36,815 nucleotides of DNA, taken from contig JAEHDC010000015.1 of the NCBI GenBank assembly GCA_016880595.1, forward strand, positions 1 to 36,815, read 5' to 3'. The notes below the pieces were generated by a model that made no database searches, was not told the origin of the DNA, and saw only the letters and a program-made list of their open reading frames with translations. The translations under genes and the position numbers were made by a program. Each line of letters opens with the position of its first letter. Within the stretch, counting starts at the first letter, position 1. Of the stretch, positions 4,846 through 25,582 are shown in pieces. This DNA is from Candidatus Saccharimonadota bacterium. GTDB taxonomy: Bacteria > Patescibacteriota > Saccharimonadia > Saccharimonadales > EFPC-124.

Positions 4846-4922
4846 GGGGCATTAGCTCATTTGGCTAGAGCGCTTCCATGGCATGGAAGAGGTGATCGGT
4901 TCGAATCCGATATGCTCCACCA
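4846..4922 (+). tRNA. tRNA-Ala (anticodon GGC), CCA encoded
   Basis: A 77-nt cloverleaf. The acceptor stem GGGGCAT (4846-4852) pairs with ATGCTCC (4912-4918) and includes the G3:U70 wobble, the alanine identity element. The anticodon stem CTTCC/GGAAG encloses the loop ATGGCAT, with anticodon GGC at 4880-4882. The T-arm has GGTTCGAATCC. The 3' end ACCA (4919-4922) is encoded. The phage region starts directly after it, so its 3' half is the probable attB/attL site for the integrase at the right end of the window. Confidence 0.96.
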
Positions 4923-5228: not shown

Positions 5229-5783
5229 ATGCCGGTCGAGCTTAATCGGAGTTCGATTATTCGACGAAGATTGCTGCTTTATGCGATTGTGATAGTTCTA
5301 TCAATCGCGTTCGTACAGCCGTCGCATTTAGCGACGCAAACAGAGCTATCGAACTTTAACAAGCCAGAGCAACTGCAGGAGCAATCCGAAGTTCCTAGGT
5401 TGGTGTCAACAGAGACATCGGCTGTAGTTGCGGCATCGGAGTTACAGTCGCAAGCGAACGCAACTGTAACGGAAACACAGAATCCGGCATCGGCTGGAAC
5501 ATGTGAGGAAGCCATCATAGCAGTTTGGCCAGCAAACTTACAGGCAGGCGCACGAATTGTAGCCCAAAAAGAGAGCGGAATGCGATCTGACGCTGTAGGC
5601 GCGGTTAACTATGACGGCTCGCAAGATTATGGTTGTTTTCAGATAAACAACTTTGCACATCCAGCATTTTTTGCTGGTGGAAATTGGAGCGATCCGACTT
5701 ACAATGCGCAGTACGCCCTCGCAATTTATAACGGGCGCGGTAACTGGACAGCATGGTATGCGGTTCGCGGCATTCTATGGTAA
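5229..5783 (+). CDS. Signal-anchored lysozyme/lytic transglycosylase
   Basis: A 184-aa exported muramidase-like protein. After a basic N-terminus there is one hydrophobic helix (about residues 15-33), which is an uncleaved anchor or signal peptide. A Ser/Thr/Gln-rich linker of 60 residues leads to an SLT-like catalytic domain. ARIVAQKESG supplies the expected catalytic glutamate (E115), and DYGCFQIN (133-140) is the substrate-cleft motif of the lysozyme superfamily. Cys92 and Cys136 may form a disulfide. No ribosome site precedes ATG 5229 and no other start codon lies upstream in frame, so the start is uncertain. It could be a SAR-type endolysin, a virion-associated lysin or host-modifying cargo. 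Confidence 0.7.
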   Translation: MPVELNRSSIIRRRLLLYAIVIVLSIAFVQPSHLATQTELSNFNKPEQLQEQSEVPRLVSTETSAVVAASELQSQANATVTETQNPASAGTCEEAIIAVWPANLQAGARIVAQKESGMRSDAVGAVNYDGSQDYGCFQINNFAHPAFFAGGNWSDPTYNAQYALAIYNGRGNWTAWYAVRGILW

Positions 5784-5792
5784 GAAACTAAA

Positions 5793-5947
5793 CTCGACAG
5801 CTCCATTGGGCATTTGGCACCTGGGCCTCGTACATTATCTCCAAAATACCCCCTCACGCTTGCCTTCATGGCGGTGAGTTGTAAAAACAAACATGCAACG
5901 TGAATAGGGCAGCTAATAGAAATTGGCTGTCCAATGGAGCTGTCGAG
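5793..5947. ncRNA. Candidate structured RNA element 1, closed by a 17-20 bp stem
   Basis: CTCGACAGCTCCATTGG (5793-5809) is a perfect inverted repeat of 5931-5947. With G-U pairing the stem extends three more pairs inward. The 121-nt interior has further hairpins: CTCAC...GCC-TTCAT-GGC...GTGAG (5853-5878), and GGGCAGC/GCTGTCC near 5907-5931, which competes with the outer stem. No ORF fits. It lies between the lysozyme and a 2-TM protein gene. Two further elements of the same build occur at 9.6 and 9.9 kb. It could be an RNase III processing site or a discrete RNA; terminal repeats of a small mobile element are less likely, since no flanking target duplication is seen. Confidence 0.45.
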
Positions 5948-5978: not shown

Positions 5979-6335
5979 ATGAGTGAAAGTAAAGAAGTAC
6001 CTGCGCTGCTTGTGGCTGACAATGTTGGCAGTAAACAGCGAAATAAAAATAAAAAGGATGAAAAAAATATGGAAAAGATTAACAAGGCAGTTTTTGGCGT
6101 AATATTTTTAATTTTAAAAATAAGCTTCGTGATCGCGGCGGTGGCGCTATGGCGAATGCCATATGTTGAGCTGATGATAAGCTTGCCGCTATATCAGATA
6201 GTCGGCAGTATAATCGTGGCATTCTTGGCGTACTTGGAGCTTTATGCGTATTTTGCGCAACCAGCCTCTAGGCCCGCTAAAAAAAGCGCATTGGATAAAT
6301 TTAAGCTCGGATACGAAGCGCAACCAATTAAATAA
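5979..6335 (+). CDS. Two-TM protein, possible holin with dual start
   Basis: A 118-aa protein starting at ATG 5979 after GGAGGG. The first 30 residues are polar and Lys-rich. Two hydrophobic helices follow (about residues 36-57 and 68-90) with a basic C-terminal tail. A second in-frame ATG at 6069 (residue 31) is preceded by AAGGA at 6054-6058, so a shorter form starting just before TM1 is plausible. Such paired starts with a charged extension are known from holin/antiholin genes. The neighbour upstream is a muramidase, which supports a lysis role, but another holin candidate lies at 34.1-34.5 kb. No family was recognised. Confidence 0.5.
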   Translation: MSESKEVPALLVADNVGSKQRNKNKKDEKNMEKINKAVFGVIFLILKISFVIAAVALWRMPYVELMISLPLYQIVGSIIVAFLAYLELYAYFAQPASRPAKKSALDKFKLGYEAQPIK

Positions 6336-6354: not shown

Positions 6355-7089
6355 ATGAACGAGAGCATTGGTTCGCAAGAAATTGAGGTGGTTACGTCAC
6401 GGCCATCACAGCCAGACGCATCAAAGAGCGTATTGACGGATGCGGATAAGAGAGAGCTCAATCTATCTGTGCTGACGCAAAATACAGCCGTCATGAACCC
6501 TACAGAATATGCACAGATGAAAAAAATGGCTGGCGAATTTTGGGCAAGTGGCGCACTGAACGATTCATTTGAAAACGTTGAGCAGGTCATAATGGCGCTT
6601 GCCGCTGGCCGCGAGATGGGTATGGGATTCATAGAGAGCATCAACGGCCTCTATTTTGTAAAAGGTAAGTTGAACATTTATGGCAAGGCTACTCCTTCTG
6701 CTTTACGTAGGCATGGCTGGCGAATTACTTACTCCGAGGAGACTCAAGAGAGCTGTACGGCTACGATTCGCAACATCGATACTGGCGAGGAAATCGTAGA
6801 TACGTATACCCTCGAGGAGGCTGAGCTATCTGGGTTCACAAAGGACAAGTATGGCTTAAAAGTTGGGTGGAAACTTGGCGCAAACCGCAAGCGCAAACTG
6901 CGTTACGGGGTCTTAAGTCTGATCATCCATACGTACATACCTGAAGTGATTGGAGCTGCATCTGGCATCGCTGAGTATAGCCGGGACTACGTGGACGTTG
7001 ATCTCACTAAAGATGCTGCCAAAACAGCCCAAAAAAAACTTGCGGATGCCGGCATCATATCAACAATTAATAAGAAAACTAGGCATTAG
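6355..7089 (+). CDS. RecT-like single-strand annealing protein
   Basis: A 244-aa protein resembling the phage RecT/Bet-type recombinases that anneal complementary single strands during recombination and replication. The pattern is QVIMALAAGREMGMGFIESINGLYFVKGKLNIYGKA, then a beta-rich segment (CTATIRNIDTGEEIVDTYTLEEAELSGF), then a basic helix (GANRKRKLRYGVLSLIIHTYIPEVIG) matching the typical order of that family. It starts at ATG 6355 after AGAGGA. It ends one base before the nuclease-translocase gene, so the two form a recombination operon equivalent to the exo-bet or recE-recT pairs. Confidence 0.7.
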   Translation: MNESIGSQEIEVVTSRPSQPDASKSVLTDADKRELNLSVLTQNTAVMNPTEYAQMKKMAGEFWASGALNDSFENVEQVIMALAAGREMGMGFIESINGLYFVKGKLNIYGKATPSALRRHGWRITYSEETQESCTATIRNIDTGEEIVDTYTLEEAELSGFTKDKYGLKVGWKLGANRKRKLRYGVLSLIIHTYIPEVIGAASGIAEYSRDYVDVDLTKDAAKTAQKKLADAGIISTINKKTRH

Positions 7090-9069
7090 ATGAGCGAAGC
7101 ACTAGTAACACATATGTCACCGTCTAGTCTGGTGTCGTATTTAACCAACCCGATGTATTTCAGAATGAGGTACATACTGGGGCGACGTGACACTCAGAGT
7201 TCAGTTACCGGCGTAATAGGTAAGGCTGGTCACAAGGCTCTTGAGCGTATCTATTCCGGCATGCCAGTCGATGAGGCCATCAGAGACGGCCAGCGCATGA
7301 TCGACAACATGTTGGACATGGAAATTAAGTACAACAGTACCATCAGCGACCGGGCCAAGCTGATTGCAGGCTATACTCGCGCAATCGGTTTTTATGTCGA
7401 TGAGTTGCCGCAGTATCACAAGATCATCAGCATAGAGGAAGCCATCCAAGAAGAAGCTGAAAGTATGCTGCACCAAGGCACCAATTTGCCCTCACCACTC
7501 AGCGTTCGCCTCGACATGCTTGTTGCTAACCAGCAAAAAGAGCTTGAGGTTATCGACCACAAGTTTGCCTACAATTACACCAACCCTGATGTAGACGACT
7601 TCAAACGCTGGATTCAGGCAATGTTCTACTATTACGCAGTCAAGGCCCGGTACGGCATTGCCCCAGCGCGTATACGATATGAGGAATGCAAGACCTCGAA
7701 GAATAAAGACGGCTCGCCGCAAATCAAAGAGTGGGTGTTTGAGTACGATGACCCTCAACACTTTGCAGTTTTTGAGCGTCTGTTTACCGACGTTATGCTG
7801 GACATGAATAACCCAGGCCGTTTGTTTTTGCCGAATCCTGGCGACATGTTTAACGGCCAAGATATGTTTGAGCTTTACCGACAAGACATTATGCCGATCG
7901 ATGCGCCGGTAGTGATAAAACACCGCACCGAGCAAAAAGAAATAGTTGAAAAACACTACACCGCTAGCGTAGGACAGTCGGCTGACACTTCAAACTACAC
8001 GCCCGAGGAAAAGATACGTGCCAAGCTGCAAGAGTTTGGAATACCTGTTGAGATGCAGGAGACTCACGTAGGCGCATCAGTTACGCAATACACACTCAAG
8101 CCCTCCAGGGGCGTTGCAATGTCAAAGATTGCCAAGGTTGGCAGTGACATAGCTATTGCGCTTGGAGCTAAGTCTGTACGCATTGAGGCGCCCATTCGCG
8201 GCACAACGCTTGTGGGCATCGAAATACCGAGCATTGAACGCAAACGCATTGGCCTTGAAGATAAGCATCTAAAGATGGGTTCACTCAGCGTACCAGTTGG
8301 AGTGAACGTTTACGGCGAATTGGTACGCAAAGACCTTACCGAGATGCCGCACTTGCTAATAGCAGGGGCTACTGGATCGGGTAAATCAGTCATGTTAAAC
8401 ACGCTTATTAAATCGCTTACTAAGCAGATGGCGTCAGACCAAATGCAGCTCGTATTGATTGACCCTAAGCGTGTCGAGTTGGCGGCATTTCGCAGCCTGC
8501 CGCATTTGATGTTTGACGTAATAAGTGAGCCGAGTGAGGCCATAGCAGCCCTCGACATGATGGTTGAGCTTATGGAAGAACGGTACGCACGGCTTGAAGC
8601 TACCGGTCACCGCAGCCTTGAAAGTTACAACGAAGAAGCTAGACAGCGCAAAGCGGCAGAGTTGCCGAAGACGGTCATTGTCATTGACGAGTTTGCAGAC
8701 CTGATGATGAACGGCGGCACTGAAAAGCGTATCACCAAAGTAATCGACGGCTATGGCCCTCGTGGCGGTGAAAAAAGTCACAAAGAGGAAAAGCCAAGCA
8801 TTGAGGCGCAGATTGTACGCATTGCCCAAAAGGCACGTGCGGTCGGTATTCATTTGGTGCTTGCAACGCAGCGGCCAAGTGCGGATGTAGTTACTGGGTT
8901 AATTAAAGCTAACATACCGACCAAGATATGCTTCATGACAACGTCAAAAACGAACAGTCAAATTGTACTGGATCGAGTGGGTGCTGAAGAGCTTACTGGT
9001 AAGGGTGACATGCTGTTTCTTGATCCATCTACTAACGGCATGCAGAGGCTACAAGGCCTTTACTGTTAA
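7090..9069 (+). CDS. PD-(D/E)XK nuclease fused to FtsK/HerA-type DNA translocase
   Basis: A 659-aa two-part protein. Residues 1-235 form a RecB/Cas4-like exonuclease: GKAGHKALE (H48), RLDM (D142), VIDHK (D156, K158) and QAMFY (Q176, Y180) give the H-D-(D)xK-QxxxY series. There are no iron-sulfur cysteines. Residues 300-390 resemble the FtsK alpha/beta region (VTQYTLKPSRGVAMSKI). Residues 415-655 are the motor: Walker A GATGSGKS (426-433), IDPKRVE, Walker B TVIVIDEF (528-535) and ATQRP (592-596). The protein stops at RLQGLYC, where chromosomal FtsK would continue to its gamma DNA-recognition domain, so that domain is absent. No membrane segment is present. It directly follows recT, suggesting motor-driven end resection that feeds RecT. 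Confidence 0.85.
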   Translation: MSEALVTHMSPSSLVSYLTNPMYFRMRYILGRRDTQSSVTGVIGKAGHKALERIYSGMPVDEAIRDGQRMIDNMLDMEIKYNSTISDRAKLIAGYTRAIGFYVDELPQYHKIISIEEAIQEEAESMLHQGTNLPSPLSVRLDMLVANQQKELEVIDHKFAYNYTNPDVDDFKRWIQAMFYYYAVKARYGIAPARIRYEECKTSKNKDGSPQIKEWVFEYDDPQHFAVFERLFTDVMLDMNNPGRLFLPNPGDMFNGQDMFELYRQDIMPIDAPVVIKHRTEQKEIVEKHYTASVGQSADTSNYTPEEKIRAKLQEFGIPVEMQETHVGASVTQYTLKPSRGVAMSKIAKVGSDIAIALGAKSVRIEAPIRGTTLVGIEIPSIERKRIGLEDKHLKMGSLSVPVGVNVYGELVRKDLTEMPHLLIAGATGSGKSVMLNTLIKSLTKQMASDQMQLVLIDPKRVELAAFRSLPHLMFDVISEPSEAIAALDMMVELMEERYARLEATGHRSLESYNEEARQRKAAELPKTVIVIDEFADLMMNGGTEKRITKVIDGYGPRGGEKSHKEEKPSIEAQIVRIAQKARAVGIHLVLATQRPSADVVTGLIKANIPTKICFMTTSKTNSQIVLDRVGAEELTGKGDMLFLDPSTNGMQRLQGLYC

Positions 9070-9097: not shown

Positions 9098-9271
9098 ATG
9101 AGAAATAAACAAAAGCCTATAAAATACATTGTGGACGAGATAAATCGTAAACGATTTCCTGCGCCGCTTTTTACAACGATAGTGACACACATTGTCAATC
9201 AAGCGGCGGTTGATGAATTCCGACGCAAGAACGGTCGGTTGCCGAGACATGTGGCGGAGGAGAAGCAATGA
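9098..9271 (+). CDS. Small basic protein, unknown
   Basis: A 57-aa ORF with ATG 9098, preceded by AAAGGAG at 9081-9087. The reading frame is rich in Arg, Lys and Ile (MRNKQKPIKYIVDEINRKRF...), with no signal or membrane segment. The stop overlaps the start of the next gene (ATGA at 9268), which supports real translation. No family is recognised. The operon position after the recombination genes suggests an early accessory protein. Confidence 0.6.
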   Translation: MRNKQKPIKYIVDEINRKRFPAPLFTTIVTHIVNQAAVDEFRRKNGRLPRHVAEEKQ

Positions 9272-9573
9272 GACCAGAAGCGCAGCAAATTTTGCAGTTT
9301 ATTGACGAGCATGTGTTGACTGATTTGGCGTCGGATGAATTGCAAGAAATCATCAATAATCTACCGATAGATATAGAAGAGGCGGCCAGTAAATTCTGCG
9401 AGCACTTTGGGCTCGGCGATTGGTTTTACGAGGCGCTGATAGCAAGCAATGTAGATATCAGCGCAGAGCTGATTAACATTGGCTTGCGGAAGCAAAAGGA
9501 GGAGCATGAGGCACTGAATGACCAGGTAGAAATTGATCACGATCTGCGATTAGCGCAGGGTGCAATTGTATGA
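9268..9573 (+). CDS. Acidic small protein, unknown
   Basis: A 101-aa acidic, helical protein (MRPEAQQILQFIDEHVLTDLASDELQEII...). Start ATG 9268 overlaps the stop of the preceding 57-aa gene and has GGAGGAG just upstream (9257-9263). It is probably all-alpha and soluble. It is the last gene of the 6.3-9.6 kb block, and its stop codon sits 2 bp before structured element 2. Function unknown; acidic early phage proteins sometimes act as inhibitors of host DNA-binding proteins, but nothing here shows that. Confidence 0.6.
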   Translation: MRPEAQQILQFIDEHVLTDLASDELQEIINNLPIDIEEAASKFCEHFGLGDWFYEALIASNVDISAELINIGLRKQKEEHEALNDQVEIDHDLRLAQGAIV

Positions 9574-9575
9574 GC

Positions 9576-9717
9576 GCTTTGCCTCTTATCAGGAGGGCTA
9601 GTGGTGATCATGAAGTAGGCTGAGAAAATAAAAGGCACCTTGCACATTCTGTACCTTAGCCCTATCTGCACAGATAGATATGTTTTTTGTACCAGCCCTC
9701 CTGATAAGGGGCAAAGC
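9576..9717. ncRNA. Candidate structured RNA element 2, closed by a 26-bp stem
   Basis: GCTTTGCCTCTTATCAGGAG at 9576-9595, continuing to 9601, pairs with 9692-9717. The 26-position stem has only one A-C mismatch and one T-G position; the latter still pairs as RNA. The interior has GGCTGAG/CTTAGCC pairing (about 9620 and 9652) and a TATCT-GCAC-AGATA hairpin (about 9662-9675). A short T6 run lies before the right arm. No ORF fits. The wobble change that keeps pairing favours function as RNA. Same architecture as elements at 5.8 and 9.9 kb, with unrelated sequence. Confidence 0.5.
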
Positions 9718-9756
9718 CATATTGCCAGTAGTTCAACATAAAAGAAAGGATAAAGA

Positions 9757-9897
9757 ATGAAAATTATACGGACAATACGTGCCTGGGTGTATAGCCTTCG
9801 TTCGAATTATGCAGAGCACAGAACAATTGAGCGAAGGCTTGATAGTTTAACTAACGATGATTTTTTGGAAAGAGTAAACAAGGGGAAGCTTGCCTAG
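9757..9897 (+). CDS. 46-aa basic peptide, unknown
   Basis: ATG 9757 is preceded by AAAGAAAGGA ending at 9750, a good ribosome site. The 46-residue product (MKIIRTIRAWVYSLRSNYAEH...) is basic at the N-terminus, with an amphipathic helix and an acidic middle. It is flanked on both sides by candidate structured RNA elements, with the next one starting 13 bp after its stop. No family recognised; the ribosome site is the main evidence that it is a gene. Confidence 0.5.
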   Translation: MKIIRTIRAWVYSLRSNYAEHRTIERRLDSLTNDDFLERVNKGKLA

Positions 9898-9909
9898 CGA
9901 AGCGAGGGT

Positions 9910-10040
9910 ATCGGCCAGCCGAAGCTGACATGGAGGCGCGAAAATGTGATACTGCAATCCGGTCGCGCCGGACGCTGAGCAAGATCGCTAAGTAGCGTGT
10001 CAGGATCGCTACCTGCATGTTTTGGCTTCGGCTGGCCGAT
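9910..10040. ncRNA. Candidate structured RNA element 3, closed by a 16-bp stem
   Basis: ATCGGCCAGCCGAAGC (9910-9925) is a perfect inverted repeat of 10025-10040. Inside, CTGACA pairs with TGTCAG, GGCGCG with CGCGCC, TCCGG with CCGGA, and CGCT-AAGT-AGCG forms a hairpin. ACATG/CATGT gives an alternative pairing next to the outer stem. The interior is compactly foldable, more so than expected of spacer DNA. There is no ORF. It sits directly between two small genes, 22 bp before the ATG of the second. Confidence 0.5.
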
Positions 10041-10061: not shown

Positions 10062-10322
10062 ATGTTAGATAAGAGTATTAGCACTACAGATAAATACAAG
10101 CTAAACCACAGAGCGAGTCTTGTGGTGAGGAATGTAAAAATCGTGAGCGAGGGTGGCAGCACCCACTACCGCACTGACTTTACGCTAAAATATCGTGAAG
10201 TTAACGATAAGCCGTTTGTATTTAGCGACGTAGATGAGGTTGCTGATTTCCTTGGTAATCTCGATATTGAAGACAATCAAATGTCATTATTTGAGGAGAA
10301 TTCGAAAAAGGCTATCAGATAA
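10062..10322 (+). CDS. 86-aa protein, unknown
   Basis: ATG 10062 follows the purine-rich stretch AAAGAAAGAAAAAG, a weak ribosome site. The product (MLDKSISTTDKYKLNHRASLVV...) has an alternating beta-strand pattern in its first half (LVVRNVKIVSEGG, YRTDFTLKYREV) and an acidic C-terminal half with NQMSLFEE, which resembles a beta-clamp binding motif (QxxLF-type: QMSLF). That would allow binding to the host sliding clamp, but the motif is short and may be chance. No family recognised. Confidence 0.55.
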   Translation: MLDKSISTTDKYKLNHRASLVVRNVKIVSEGGSTHYRTDFTLKYREVNDKPFVFSDVDEVADFLGNLDIEDNQMSLFEENSKKAIR

Positions 10323-10550
10323 TCAAGCCAAAATGTAAATTGTCAATTCACAAAAACGATGAGAATCGCTGGTGCCCGATGCTCTCTAGAAATAGTGTTT
10401 GCGCCGGTAAAATGAGTGGTTAAATGGCGTGGATAGCTCGAGGTTATCCCGACGCAGCAGCCAGTGGGCAATGAGTCGTGCTCCTTGCGAGGGAAGCACG
10501 ACTCACAGACTTAATTTTCATGAAATTTTAAAAAATGGAGGAGAAATAAA
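10323..10550. other. Non-coding gap with strong hairpin at 10472-10505
   Basis: No convincing gene in 228 bp. TGAGTCGTGCT (10472-10482) pairs perfectly with AGCACGACTCA (10495-10505) across a 12-nt loop, without a T-run. Smaller hairpins are CGAT-GAGA-ATCG and GGATA/TATCC. It may be a fourth structured element of the early region, but it lacks a long stem closing the whole unit. Confidence 0.4.
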
Positions 10551-10694
10551 ATGGATGAAGACTCAAAATTTTTCTTGATTTTTATTGCTGGATTCCTGGC
10601 GCTCGTGCTAGGCCTAACGGCAATAACATGCGCAGCGGCATTATTTATTATGAATTTTATCGATGTTTTAAGAAATCTAGGCGGTAAAAAATGA
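10551..10694 (+). CDS. 47-aa single-TM peptide
   Basis: ATG 10551 follows GGAGGAG (10537-10543), a strong ribosome site. The product is MDEDSKFFLIFIAGFLALVL followed by a second hydrophobic run (TAITCAAALFIMNFI) and a short basic tail (RNLGGKK), so it is one long or two short membrane helices. The stop overlaps the next ATG (10691). Small membrane peptides of this kind in phages include holin-like and exclusion proteins; no assignment is possible. Confidence 0.6.
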   Translation: MDEDSKFFLIFIAGFLALVLGLTAITCAAALFIMNFIDVLRNLGGKK

Positions 10695-11112: not shown

Positions 11113-11184
11113 CTTATGCTTAAGAAATAGGCTATAATAAAGATAACAGAAGCGATCACAATATGTGGTCGCTTTTTTTATTTG
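11110..11184 (+). promoter_or_regulatory. Late leader A: promoter followed by terminator-like hairpin
   Basis: TAGCTT (11110) and TATAAT (11133-11138) are 17 bp apart. Fourteen bases after the -10 begins GCGATCACA-ATA-TGTGGTCGC (11152-11172), a 9-bp stem with one G-U, followed by T7. This is an intrinsic terminator in the 5' leader of the terminase gene, whose AAAGGAAG and ATG lie downstream. The 54 bp 11131-11184 recur exactly at 13289-13342. Confidence 0.75.
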
Positions 11185-11203
11185 CTTTGAAAGGAAGCGA
11201 GCG

Positions 11204-13267: not shown

Positions 13268-13342
13268 TCGAAACGTGATTGTTATTGTGCTATAATAAAG
13301 ATAACAGAAGCGATCACAATATGTGGTCGCTTTTTTTATTTG
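13268..13342 (+). promoter_or_regulatory. Late leader B: promoter plus terminator-like hairpin
   Basis: Extended -10 TGTGCTATAAT (TATAAT 13291-13296) is followed by GCGATCACA-ATA-TGTGGTCGC (13310-13330) and T7. Bases 13289-13342 are identical to leader A. The portal gene starts 18 bp further on. Conservation of promoter, hairpin and T-run as one 54-bp block indicates a functional cassette. Confidence 0.75.
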
Positions 13343-13359
13343 TAAAAGGAAAATGAATT

Positions 13360-23092: not shown

Positions 23093-25582
23093 ATGAATGA
23101 CAAAGATATAACAATCACCATTAAGGCCAGCGCTAAAGAATTTGCTGCAGCAATGGCGGCCATGCAGTCGCAGGTAAAAAATGCGAGTCAATCAATTAAT
23201 GATAATCTCGAGAGTACTGATCAAGCGACTAGTAGAACTAGTGACCGCTTCTCTAGTATGGGGACCTATATTCAAAGTGCATTAGTAGCTGTGGCGTTAG
23301 CGGCTAGTACTGCCGGCTTAGCATCGATTACGATGGCCGGAAATTTTGAGCAGAGTATGAATGTGCTTAACAGCGTAACTGGAGCATCTGCCGAGCAGAT
23401 GGCTCAGCTTTCTGAGAGGGCGCGCGAGCTAGGTCAGGATATTTCGTTACCGGGAGTGAGCGCTACTGATGCTGCTAGTGCAATGACCGAATTAGCTAAG
23501 GCAAACCTGAGTGTTGATCAAGTGCTTGCTGCGAGCAAGGGTACTCTATCGTTGGCCAAGGCTGGTCAGGTTGACGTTGCATTTGCTGCGCAAACGACGG
23601 CTCAGGCGCTTAATGCATTTGGGCTAGCTGGAGAGGAGGCATCGAGAGTTGCCGATCTGTTGGCAGCAAGTGCCAACTCATCAACATCGGATGTTGAAGG
23701 TATGGCTTTGGGCTTATCGCAGGTTGGCGCTGGCGCAAAAAGTATGGGCGTTAATATACAGGACACGATTACCGCTCTGGCTATGTTCTCTAATGCCGGA
23801 ATAAACGGGTCTGATGCAGGCACATCGCTAAAGACCATGTTCCAGATGTTGGCAAGTCCAACAAAAGAATCGGCCAAGGCGATGAGCGAGCTTGGACTGG
23901 ACTTTTTTGACGCGCAGGGTAACTTTGTTGGCTTAGCGGACACCGCTGAGCAGCTGCAAAATAAACTCGGCAGCTTAACGGTGGAACAAAAGAATGCTGC
24001 TTTAGCTACGATATTTGGTAGTGATTCAAGCCGTGTTGCTGGTATACTCGCGGCACAGGGTGCTGAAGGCTTTGACCAGATGAGTGCTGCGGTCAATAAG
24101 TCTGGCGCTGCACAAGAGTTAGCTGCCGCACAAAATTCGGGCTTCAATGGTGCGCTAGACAACTTAATTAGTACGATAGAGACCGTTGGCACGGATCTTG
24201 GCATTAAGGTATTACCACCTCTTACTGAGTTTCTTAAATTAATGGCAGAACAGCTGCCACCAGCCGTCAACTGGGCTATTGATAATGGGCAAACGTTAGC
24301 GATTGCTGCTGCATCTATTGGCTCTGCTTTTGCCACAATACGTATAGCCGGCACCATTAGTGATTTTGCAAAGGCAAAGAAAACGCTAGACTTGTTTGTT
24401 GGCGAAAAAAATGCAGTGGGCATTAAGGCCATTGGCTCTGCTTTTATGCACGTGGCGAATGGTGCAAAATCAGCCGTAATCTGGATAGGCAAGGGGACGA
24501 TAGAGATTGCTAGTCATGGTGCAGCCGTTGCTGTATCGACCGCCAAGCTTGCCGTACACGCAGTTGCGCAGGGCGCTGTAAGAACGGCGACAGCAGCATG
24601 GACGGCAGCGCAATGGTTGCTGAACGCAGCATTGAACGCGAATCCGCTTACACTAATTATGGTTGGAGTCATGGCGCTAGTGGCAGGACTGGCGTTACTG
24701 TACGCAAACTGCGAGGGATTCCGCAATGCAGTAAATGCTGCGTTCAGCATGGCTTTGGGCGCAATCCAGGCCGTTTGGAATTGGGCGAGCCAAAACTGGC
24801 CTCTGCTGCTAGCGATACTTACCGGTCCAATTGGGCTGGCGGTATTAGCCATTATTCAAAATTGGGAGACCGTCAAAACGGCATTTGCGGCTGCACTACA
24901 GTTTGTTCAAGGAATTTGGGGCGGTGTTGTTGCGTGGTTTGGCAGCGTTTGGAATGGCATTGTTAGCGTGTTTAGCAGTGTAGCGGATTGGTTCGGTAAT
25001 ATTTTTACCAATGCATGGAATGCAGTTATGAATGTTTTTGCTAATATTGGTGAGTTCTTTGGAAGCGTATGGAATACAATTGTTAGTATTTTCTCCAGTG
25101 TCGGTACGGCCATTGGTGATGCTATAGGCGGCTCAGTGCGGGGTGTTGTTAACTCAATCCTAGGTTTTGCTGAAGACACGATTAATGGCTTCATAGGGGC
25201 AATAAATATAGCGGTAGATACGATTAACGACATTCCAGGAGTGACTATTGGGCGGCTTAGCTACTTGGACATTCCGCGACTAGCATCGGGTGGTATAGCT
25301 AATGCTACTAGTGGCGGTCAGTTGGTTACTGTGGCCGAGGGTGGGCAGGATGAGTGGATAATTCCAGAGAGCAAAATGGCATCTGTAGTGCAGCAACTTA
25401 CATCCAGCGCAAGCAAGAACACTAGCGGCAACACTATAACGCAAAATTTTACGGTCAACGTCACAGTAGAAAATGACGGCACTGACTTTACTCAAGAGCA
25501 GGCCGAAAGCATGGGCAGGACAATTGCAATGGTGCTAAGGGCACAGGGATTAGGAGTTAATGAGATGGGGGCGCTTAGATGA
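23093..25582 (+). CDS. Tail tape measure protein
   Basis: An 829-aa protein that sets tail length, short for a tape measure, so the tail is probably short to medium. The N-terminus is coiled coil, followed by the TP901-type core (ITMAGNFEQSMNVLNSVTGASAEQMAQLSERARELG, about 75-120, then LSQVGAGAKSMGV and ALAMFSNAGINGSDAGTSLK). Hydrophobic helices lie at about 515-600 (LTLIMVGVMALVAGLALLYANC, LLLAILTGPIGLAVLAIIQNW). Trp/Gly-rich repeats follow (WGGVVAWFGSVWNGIVSVF). No ribosome site precedes ATG 23093, which is unusual; the antisense moron sits directly upstream. Its end overlaps the next gene (ATGA). Confidence 0.88.
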   Translation: MNDKDITITIKASAKEFAAAMAAMQSQVKNASQSINDNLESTDQATSRTSDRFSSMGTYIQSALVAVALAASTAGLASITMAGNFEQSMNVLNSVTGASAEQMAQLSERARELGQDISLPGVSATDAASAMTELAKANLSVDQVLAASKGTLSLAKAGQVDVAFAAQTTAQALNAFGLAGEEASRVADLLAASANSSTSDVEGMALGLSQVGAGAKSMGVNIQDTITALAMFSNAGINGSDAGTSLKTMFQMLASPTKESAKAMSELGLDFFDAQGNFVGLADTAEQLQNKLGSLTVEQKNAALATIFGSDSSRVAGILAAQGAEGFDQMSAAVNKSGAAQELAAAQNSGFNGALDNLISTIETVGTDLGIKVLPPLTEFLKLMAEQLPPAVNWAIDNGQTLAIAAASIGSAFATIRIAGTISDFAKAKKTLDLFVGEKNAVGIKAIGSAFMHVANGAKSAVIWIGKGTIEIASHGAAVAVSTAKLAVHAVAQGAVRTATAAWTAAQWLLNAALNANPLTLIMVGVMALVAGLALLYANCEGFRNAVNAAFSMALGAIQAVWNWASQNWPLLLAILTGPIGLAVLAIIQNWETVKTAFAAALQFVQGIWGGVVAWFGSVWNGIVSVFSSVADWFGNIFTNAWNAVMNVFANIGEFFGSVWNTIVSIFSSVGTAIGDAIGGSVRGVVNSILGFAEDTINGFIGAINIAVDTINDIPGVTIGRLSYLDIPRLASGGIANATSGGQLVTVAEGGQDEWIIPESKMASVVQQLTSSASKNTSGNTITQNFTVNVTVENDGTDFTQEQAESMGRTIAMVLRAQGLGVNEMGALR

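Follow-up and report, generated by a model that had tools for sequence, protein, structure and literature searches.

Bacteriophage T7 carries 10 RNase III sites (PMC9135205), and E. coli RNase III cuts between the rpsO and pnp cistrons (PMC8708148). The Correia or NEMIS elements of Neisseria, ~107-155 bp long with terminal inverted repeats of ~24 bp, give rise to transcripts that can be RNase III substrates (PMC2229807, PMC2649163). The ~168-bp palindromic YPAL/RU-2 elements of Yersinia are intergenic, have target sites that span or adjoin dyad symmetry, and might affect the stability of the upstream transcript (PMC2229807). Template-switch hairpins and quasi-palindromes (PMC8794818) offer a further comparison, since they account for a perfect stem formed in one step around an arbitrary loop, although they represent a mechanism of origin and not a function. 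Here we compare with these systems three long inverted repeats in the prophage of a Candidatus Saccharimonadota bacterium.

The window, by which we mean the whole stretch of 36,815 nt that was analysed, is one contig (C63) of a host genome of 0.95 Mb in 76 contigs that is 86% complete and whose size and gene content most likely place it in the Saccharimonadales (Patescibacteria). Chromosomal genes, such as the gene for NAD-dependent DNA ligase, lie left of ~4.85 kb, a tRNA-Ala gene (4846-4922) occupies the junction region, and the prophage runs from the right of this tRNA gene towards the contig end. It encodes terminase subunits, portal, protease, major head protein, tail tube and tape measure. 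Upstream of these, the gene for a RecT-like protein (6355-7089) adjoins one that encodes a PD-(D/E)XK nuclease fused to an FtsK/SpoIIIE motor (7090-9069), a pairing that looks unusual for a phage recombination module. All three inverted repeats are found in this early gene block, at ~5.2-10.3 kb.

Element 1 (5793-5947, forward strand as for the other two; arms 5793-5812 and 5928-5947) is 155 nt long and is closed by 20 pairs, 19 Watson-Crick and one G-U, around an interior of 115 nt. Element 2 (9576-9717; arms 9576-9602 and 9691-9717) spans 142 nt, with an interior of 88 nt and a stem of 27 pairs, all Watson-Crick (25) except for one G-U (9584/9709) and one A-C. The 131-nt element 3 (9910-10040; arms 9910-9925 and 10025-10040) has 16 perfect pairs that can be extended to 19 by two G-U pairs and one A-U pair. 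A repeat finder recovered precisely these three pairs, and the coordinates, sizes and stems given in the original prediction are borne out, as are the absence of a plausible gene from the elements and their lack of relation to one another in sequence. When our own search scores arms as Watson-Crick pairs minus 3 per mismatch, elements 1, 2 and 3 reach 19, 23 and 17, far above chance, since no repeat scored above 14 in any of 150 dinucleotide-shuffled versions of the window. A fourth repeat of similar size, which had not been predicted, is located at 24618-24749 inside the tape-measure gene; it has a perfect 16-bp stem and a 100-nt spacer, and its score of 16 likewise exceeds every one of the 150 shuffles. 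Outside repeat families, the rest of the scanned host genome has no counterpart to elements 1-3 except one longer repeat of 245 nt, in a scan that took the contigs in pieces no longer than 20 kb and covered longer contigs up to their ends, the ends themselves excepted.

Each of the three elements sits between co-directional early genes, ahead of the ribosome-binding region, starting 2-12 nt past a stop codon and ending 21-40 nt ahead of the next ATG. Element 1 begins 9 nt after the stop codon of a lysozyme-like gene (5229-5783, forward strand as for all genes here; Pfam SLT_3) and is followed after 31 nt by a gene for a 118-aa protein of no family (5979-6335). Element 2 lies 2 nt behind the stop codon of a gene for a 101-aa protein, again of no family (9268-9573). 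Between elements 2 and 3 we read by eye a putative small gene of 46 aa (9758-9898), whose ATG is preceded by an AAAGGA site. Downstream of element 3, a gene encoding an 86-aa protein of no family (10062-10322) starts after 21 nt; the C-terminal end of this protein, also read by eye, is ...NQMSLFEENSKKAIR, and its QMSLF resembles a sliding-clamp binding motif. With the elements subtracted, the intergenic gaps come to ~32-42 nt. Other gaps in the early block are often short, but because some are large, such as the 230 nt at 10323-10552, the compactness of the block is only suggestive.

The original prediction also described internal hairpins as part of a common architecture, which our folding does not support. 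As whole sequences, elements 1, 2 and 3 fold with z-scores of -5.5, -7.2 and -8.2. Once the closing stem is removed, the interiors give +0.99, +0.39 and -1.86, such that elements 1 and 2 have no interior structure beyond chance and element 3 is weakly structured. The folding signal is thus that of the closing stem, and the shared architecture reduces to a long stem with a loop of ~90-115 nt, unlike a conserved structured non-coding RNA, for which internal structure beyond chance is expected. Folding of the reverse strands is nearly as strong (z -4.65, -6.49 and -6.21). We note as a caution that a strong z-score for a whole element can, as here, derive from its closing stem alone.

Compared with described systems, the elements resemble the intercistronic RNase III sites of T7 in being stem-loops between phage genes in the presence of a host RNase III. 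T7 RNase III hairpins, for example R1.1, are compact, with loops shorter than 88-115 nt, while the window elements combine near-perfect stems with an unstructured loop of 88-115 nt, and their cleavage is only predicted. With Correia/NEMIS they share size and the presence of terminal inverted repeats. NEMIS, however, are multi-copy elements whose sequence is conserved and which have TA ends and target duplications, whereas the window elements are single-copy, mutually unrelated and without target duplication. They are also intergenic and palindromic like YPAL/RU-2, but these form a repeated family with target duplications, and the window elements have no family.

Searches for relatives found none in the collections covered. 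Blastn of the elements detected no homologues among GenBank phages or in samples of 393 genomes from the class and 393 from the order (the two samples overlap, and full scoring was limited to two candidates from each genome, such that weak relatives may have escaped), and exact 20-22-mer core probes had no match in IMG/VR. Weak matches were rejected on inspection, since they appear to be due to chance and fall mostly within coding sequence. With the FtsK fusion, RecT and terminase as protein anchors, we reached nothing but chromosomal FtsK and distant phages, the latter mostly at ~25-42% identity. At the positions of elements 1-3, Rfam covariance models gave no match even at E up to 5. Each element is single copy in its own genome, where its arms do not recur above chance level in 854 kb, and no target-site duplication abuts the repeat ends. 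With no further arm copies in these 854 kb and no target duplications, the elements do not fit a MITE or Correia-type repeat, and the degraded transposon ends named in the original prediction are unsupported. Integron attC sites, considered because a stop codon precedes each element, were dropped when inspection revealed no GTTRRRY-like ends. Scans for promoter-like and terminator-like sites found 7 and 3, respectively, against 8.0 and 5.5 expected from shuffles, and none frames an element.

Palindromes of another kind are abundant in G002, a genome of the same family. We found 48 of them with loops of at least 30 nt in 363 kb, which by core belong to families C (18), D (16), T2 (9) and E (3) or are singletons (2). 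Conserved cores of ~50-100 nt are enclosed in near-perfect inverted arms of ~20-41 bp, and in families C and T2 the outer arms vary from copy to copy (dispersed C, D and T2 copies at L078 2386-2551, 8914-9016, 14695-14813 and 14812-14912; L217-L246; L295-L314). Two D copies have identical arms and cores in opposite orientations (L304 11870 and L305 15737); such spacer inversion is among the reported results of template switching between inverted repeats (PMC8604942). Insertion at sites of dyad symmetry has been reported for YPAL (PMC2229807), to which the G002 repeats are closer than the window elements are. The arm-core-arm organisation could have arisen by inverted duplication on insertion, by template switching, or by insertion into existing hairpins. 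The genome that contains the window has palindromic repeats of its own. One, of 157 nt with CTCGAC...GTCGAG ends, is found at contig ends (L064 1-157, L125 1-157 and L247; contigs C7, C48 and C34) and is probably a miniature transposable element, to which other genomes hold weaker relatives; element 1 has the same CTCGAC/GTCGAG ends and a near-identical length (155 versus 157 nt), and the interiors are unlike. Another, of ~97-117 nt with CCTGAATCTCAAAACC arms, has about nine chromosomal copies (L070 5625-5721 and 15123-15231; L072 785-901; L133 5676-5774; L248-L252).

Near-perfect stems in this family may therefore be products of DNA-level processes, and in a lineage whose chromosomes may abound in near-perfect DNA palindromes, perfect stems are not in themselves evidence of RNA selection. 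The G002 repeats do not show the window elements to be such products, since the latter occur once each and lack a repeated core. The same comparison bears on the G-U pair of element 2, which had been taken as a hint of RNA-level selection. The pair is real, but it is accompanied by an A-C mismatch in that element, and the clearly DNA-level arms of G002 likewise deviate mostly by G-T. Among 1,496 arm pairs in G002, 25 are not Watson-Crick (16 G-T, 7 A-C and 2 others). Since the search method prefers G-T over A-C, this comparison does not count as evidence for RNA selection. An RNA-level and a DNA-level origin cannot be told apart by G-U pairs, and we set the asymmetry aside as uninformative.

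We tentatively favour the interpretation that elements 1-3 are intercistronic stem-loops for processing by RNase III or for stabilisation of the mRNA. Processing sites of this type had been one of the original suggestions, and they are the best fit left: the 16-27 bp stems between co-directional genes of the early block provide the long RNA duplex between cistrons that marks RNase III sites, and the host encodes RNase III (PF00636 match, E 4.2e-24; genome G000, contig C7). In this model, the early genes would be transcribed as a single mRNA, and host RNase III would cut both arms of each duplex, such that the loop drops out. Cutting would part the upstream from the downstream cistron and give each its own lifetime, as proposed by analogy to the T7 RNase III sites. 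What would count is the near-perfect closing duplex of 16-27 bp right behind the stop codon, the loop being mostly unconstrained filler, and unstructured interiors within near-perfect stems are as expected if the duplex alone is selected. The stems would need no pair-by-pair build-up, since one template switch during replication could have created each, with possible retention by selection. Selection on an mRNA duplex also fits better than random insertion, because three unrelated sequences form duplexes of one type, each at a gene junction of a single block, with hardly any counterpart outside repeat families in the scanned remainder of the genome. We infer co-transcription, cleavage and the effect of cleavage from this arrangement. 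Several observations speak against the RNase III interpretation, namely that the collections searched hold no homologues to show conservation or covariation, that the 88-115 nt loops exceed those of compact RNase III hairpins, that the reverse strands fold almost equally, and that DNA-level processes in this family can yield equally perfect arms. Our confidence stays a little short of even, because the evidence is at the level of DNA, and because a neutral DNA-level process would need no function to account for arms that are perfect and interiors that are random. Should the stems be RNase III sites, this would point to control of mRNA processing in phages of Patescibacteria, whose molecular biology has hardly been studied. 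A broader idea, that phages of these ultra-small hosts generally cut and tune polycistronic mRNA by means of fast-diverging stem-loops set between early genes, with template switching making and renewing stems whose architecture is kept and whose sequence is not, is speculative and, we think, rather doubtful.

The main alternative, to which we give clearly less than an even chance, is that the elements are DNA-level palindromes with no selected RNA role, small insertions or template-switch products tolerated between genes. Near-perfect arms around random interiors are what such events would leave, and one template-switch event can give a perfect stem (PMC8794818). The dozens of repeats inside near-perfect, locus-specific inverted arms in G002 make it plausible that the lineage generates such structures, and the own genome has palindromic repeat families (A and B). 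Unlike the repeats of either genome, however, the elements are single-copy and share no core, they have no target duplication, and it would be a coincidence for three independent events to fall within 4.3 kb when the rest of the scanned genome has almost none outside repeat families. Chance or an assembly artefact would account for the elements being known from one genome only, yet it is very improbable given that 150 shuffles produced nothing comparable, that spacers of 88-115 nt are unlike those of fold-back chimaeras, and that all three cases fall at gene boundaries.

The original prediction also raised the possibility of new phage non-coding RNAs. Discrete small RNAs, each a folded species of 130-155 nt acting in trans, would agree with the strong whole-element folds and with the weakly structured interior of element 3. 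We consider them unlikely and the suggestion unsupported, since elements 1 and 2 lack interior structure, promoter- and terminator-like sites are no commoner than in shuffles and frame none of the elements, and neither an Rfam match nor a homologue was found in the collections searched. Nor do the elements match an RNA family of related prophages that has a promoter, a terminator, a conserved core and covariation (see below). The decoys for host defence that had also been suggested find neither support nor contradiction in our results. A function as single-stranded DNA, in replication, recombination or packaging, is suggested by the RecT-like gene and the nuclease-FtsK fusion in the same block. 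We regard it as improbable, as three different sequences are scattered between genes, and our analysis identified neither a protein-binding motif nor a replication initiator.

The leader-RNA family just mentioned came from the same screen, in related prophages and chromosomes, and together with the G002 repeats it is a stronger finding than elements 1-3 (alignments A1 and A2, model R1; L158 1521-1690; L160-L164, L166, L170 and L174; L013 2961-3117; L088 1313-1470; L092 8449-8604; L096; L327-L335). A TATAAT-like promoter lies a few bases upstream of a long closing stem whose start is usually UGUCUAG, the inner motif is similar to GGCAGCUACG, and a terminator hairpin, which reads GACAGUCCAGCGUGGCUGUC in the majority of the first 13 copies, is followed by Ts. 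Behind the terminator there is usually a Shine-Dalgarno site and a start codon. In 13 copies, 11 of the 31 pairs have changed on both sides, and the covariation score was reached by none of 500 shuffles. Across the alignment 96.5% of cells are paired, a share that drops to 37% or less once pairing partners are shifted by 1-3 columns; this control favours the structure, which was derived from the same alignment. The covariance model matches 71 of the 393 order genomes (E <= 0.001), and Rfam has no match at the leader-RNA position of the loci checked. In the window, the best match to this model has an E of 0.37 and lies away from elements 1-3, which have none of the features of the family. The genes behind the leader are varied accessory genes, encoding DUF4352 proteins, an Exo_endo_phos protein and a GIY-YIG protein, and in several prophages the leader comes right after the gene for the large terminase subunit. 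This covarying family may outweigh the finding that began this analysis.

The window itself contains a module, CTATAATAAAGATAACAGAAGCGATCACAATATGTGGTCGCTTTTTTTATTTG, in which a terminator-like hairpin stands directly behind a promoter-like box. It is present twice, before the small terminase gene (11131-11185) and after the large terminase gene (13292-13345).
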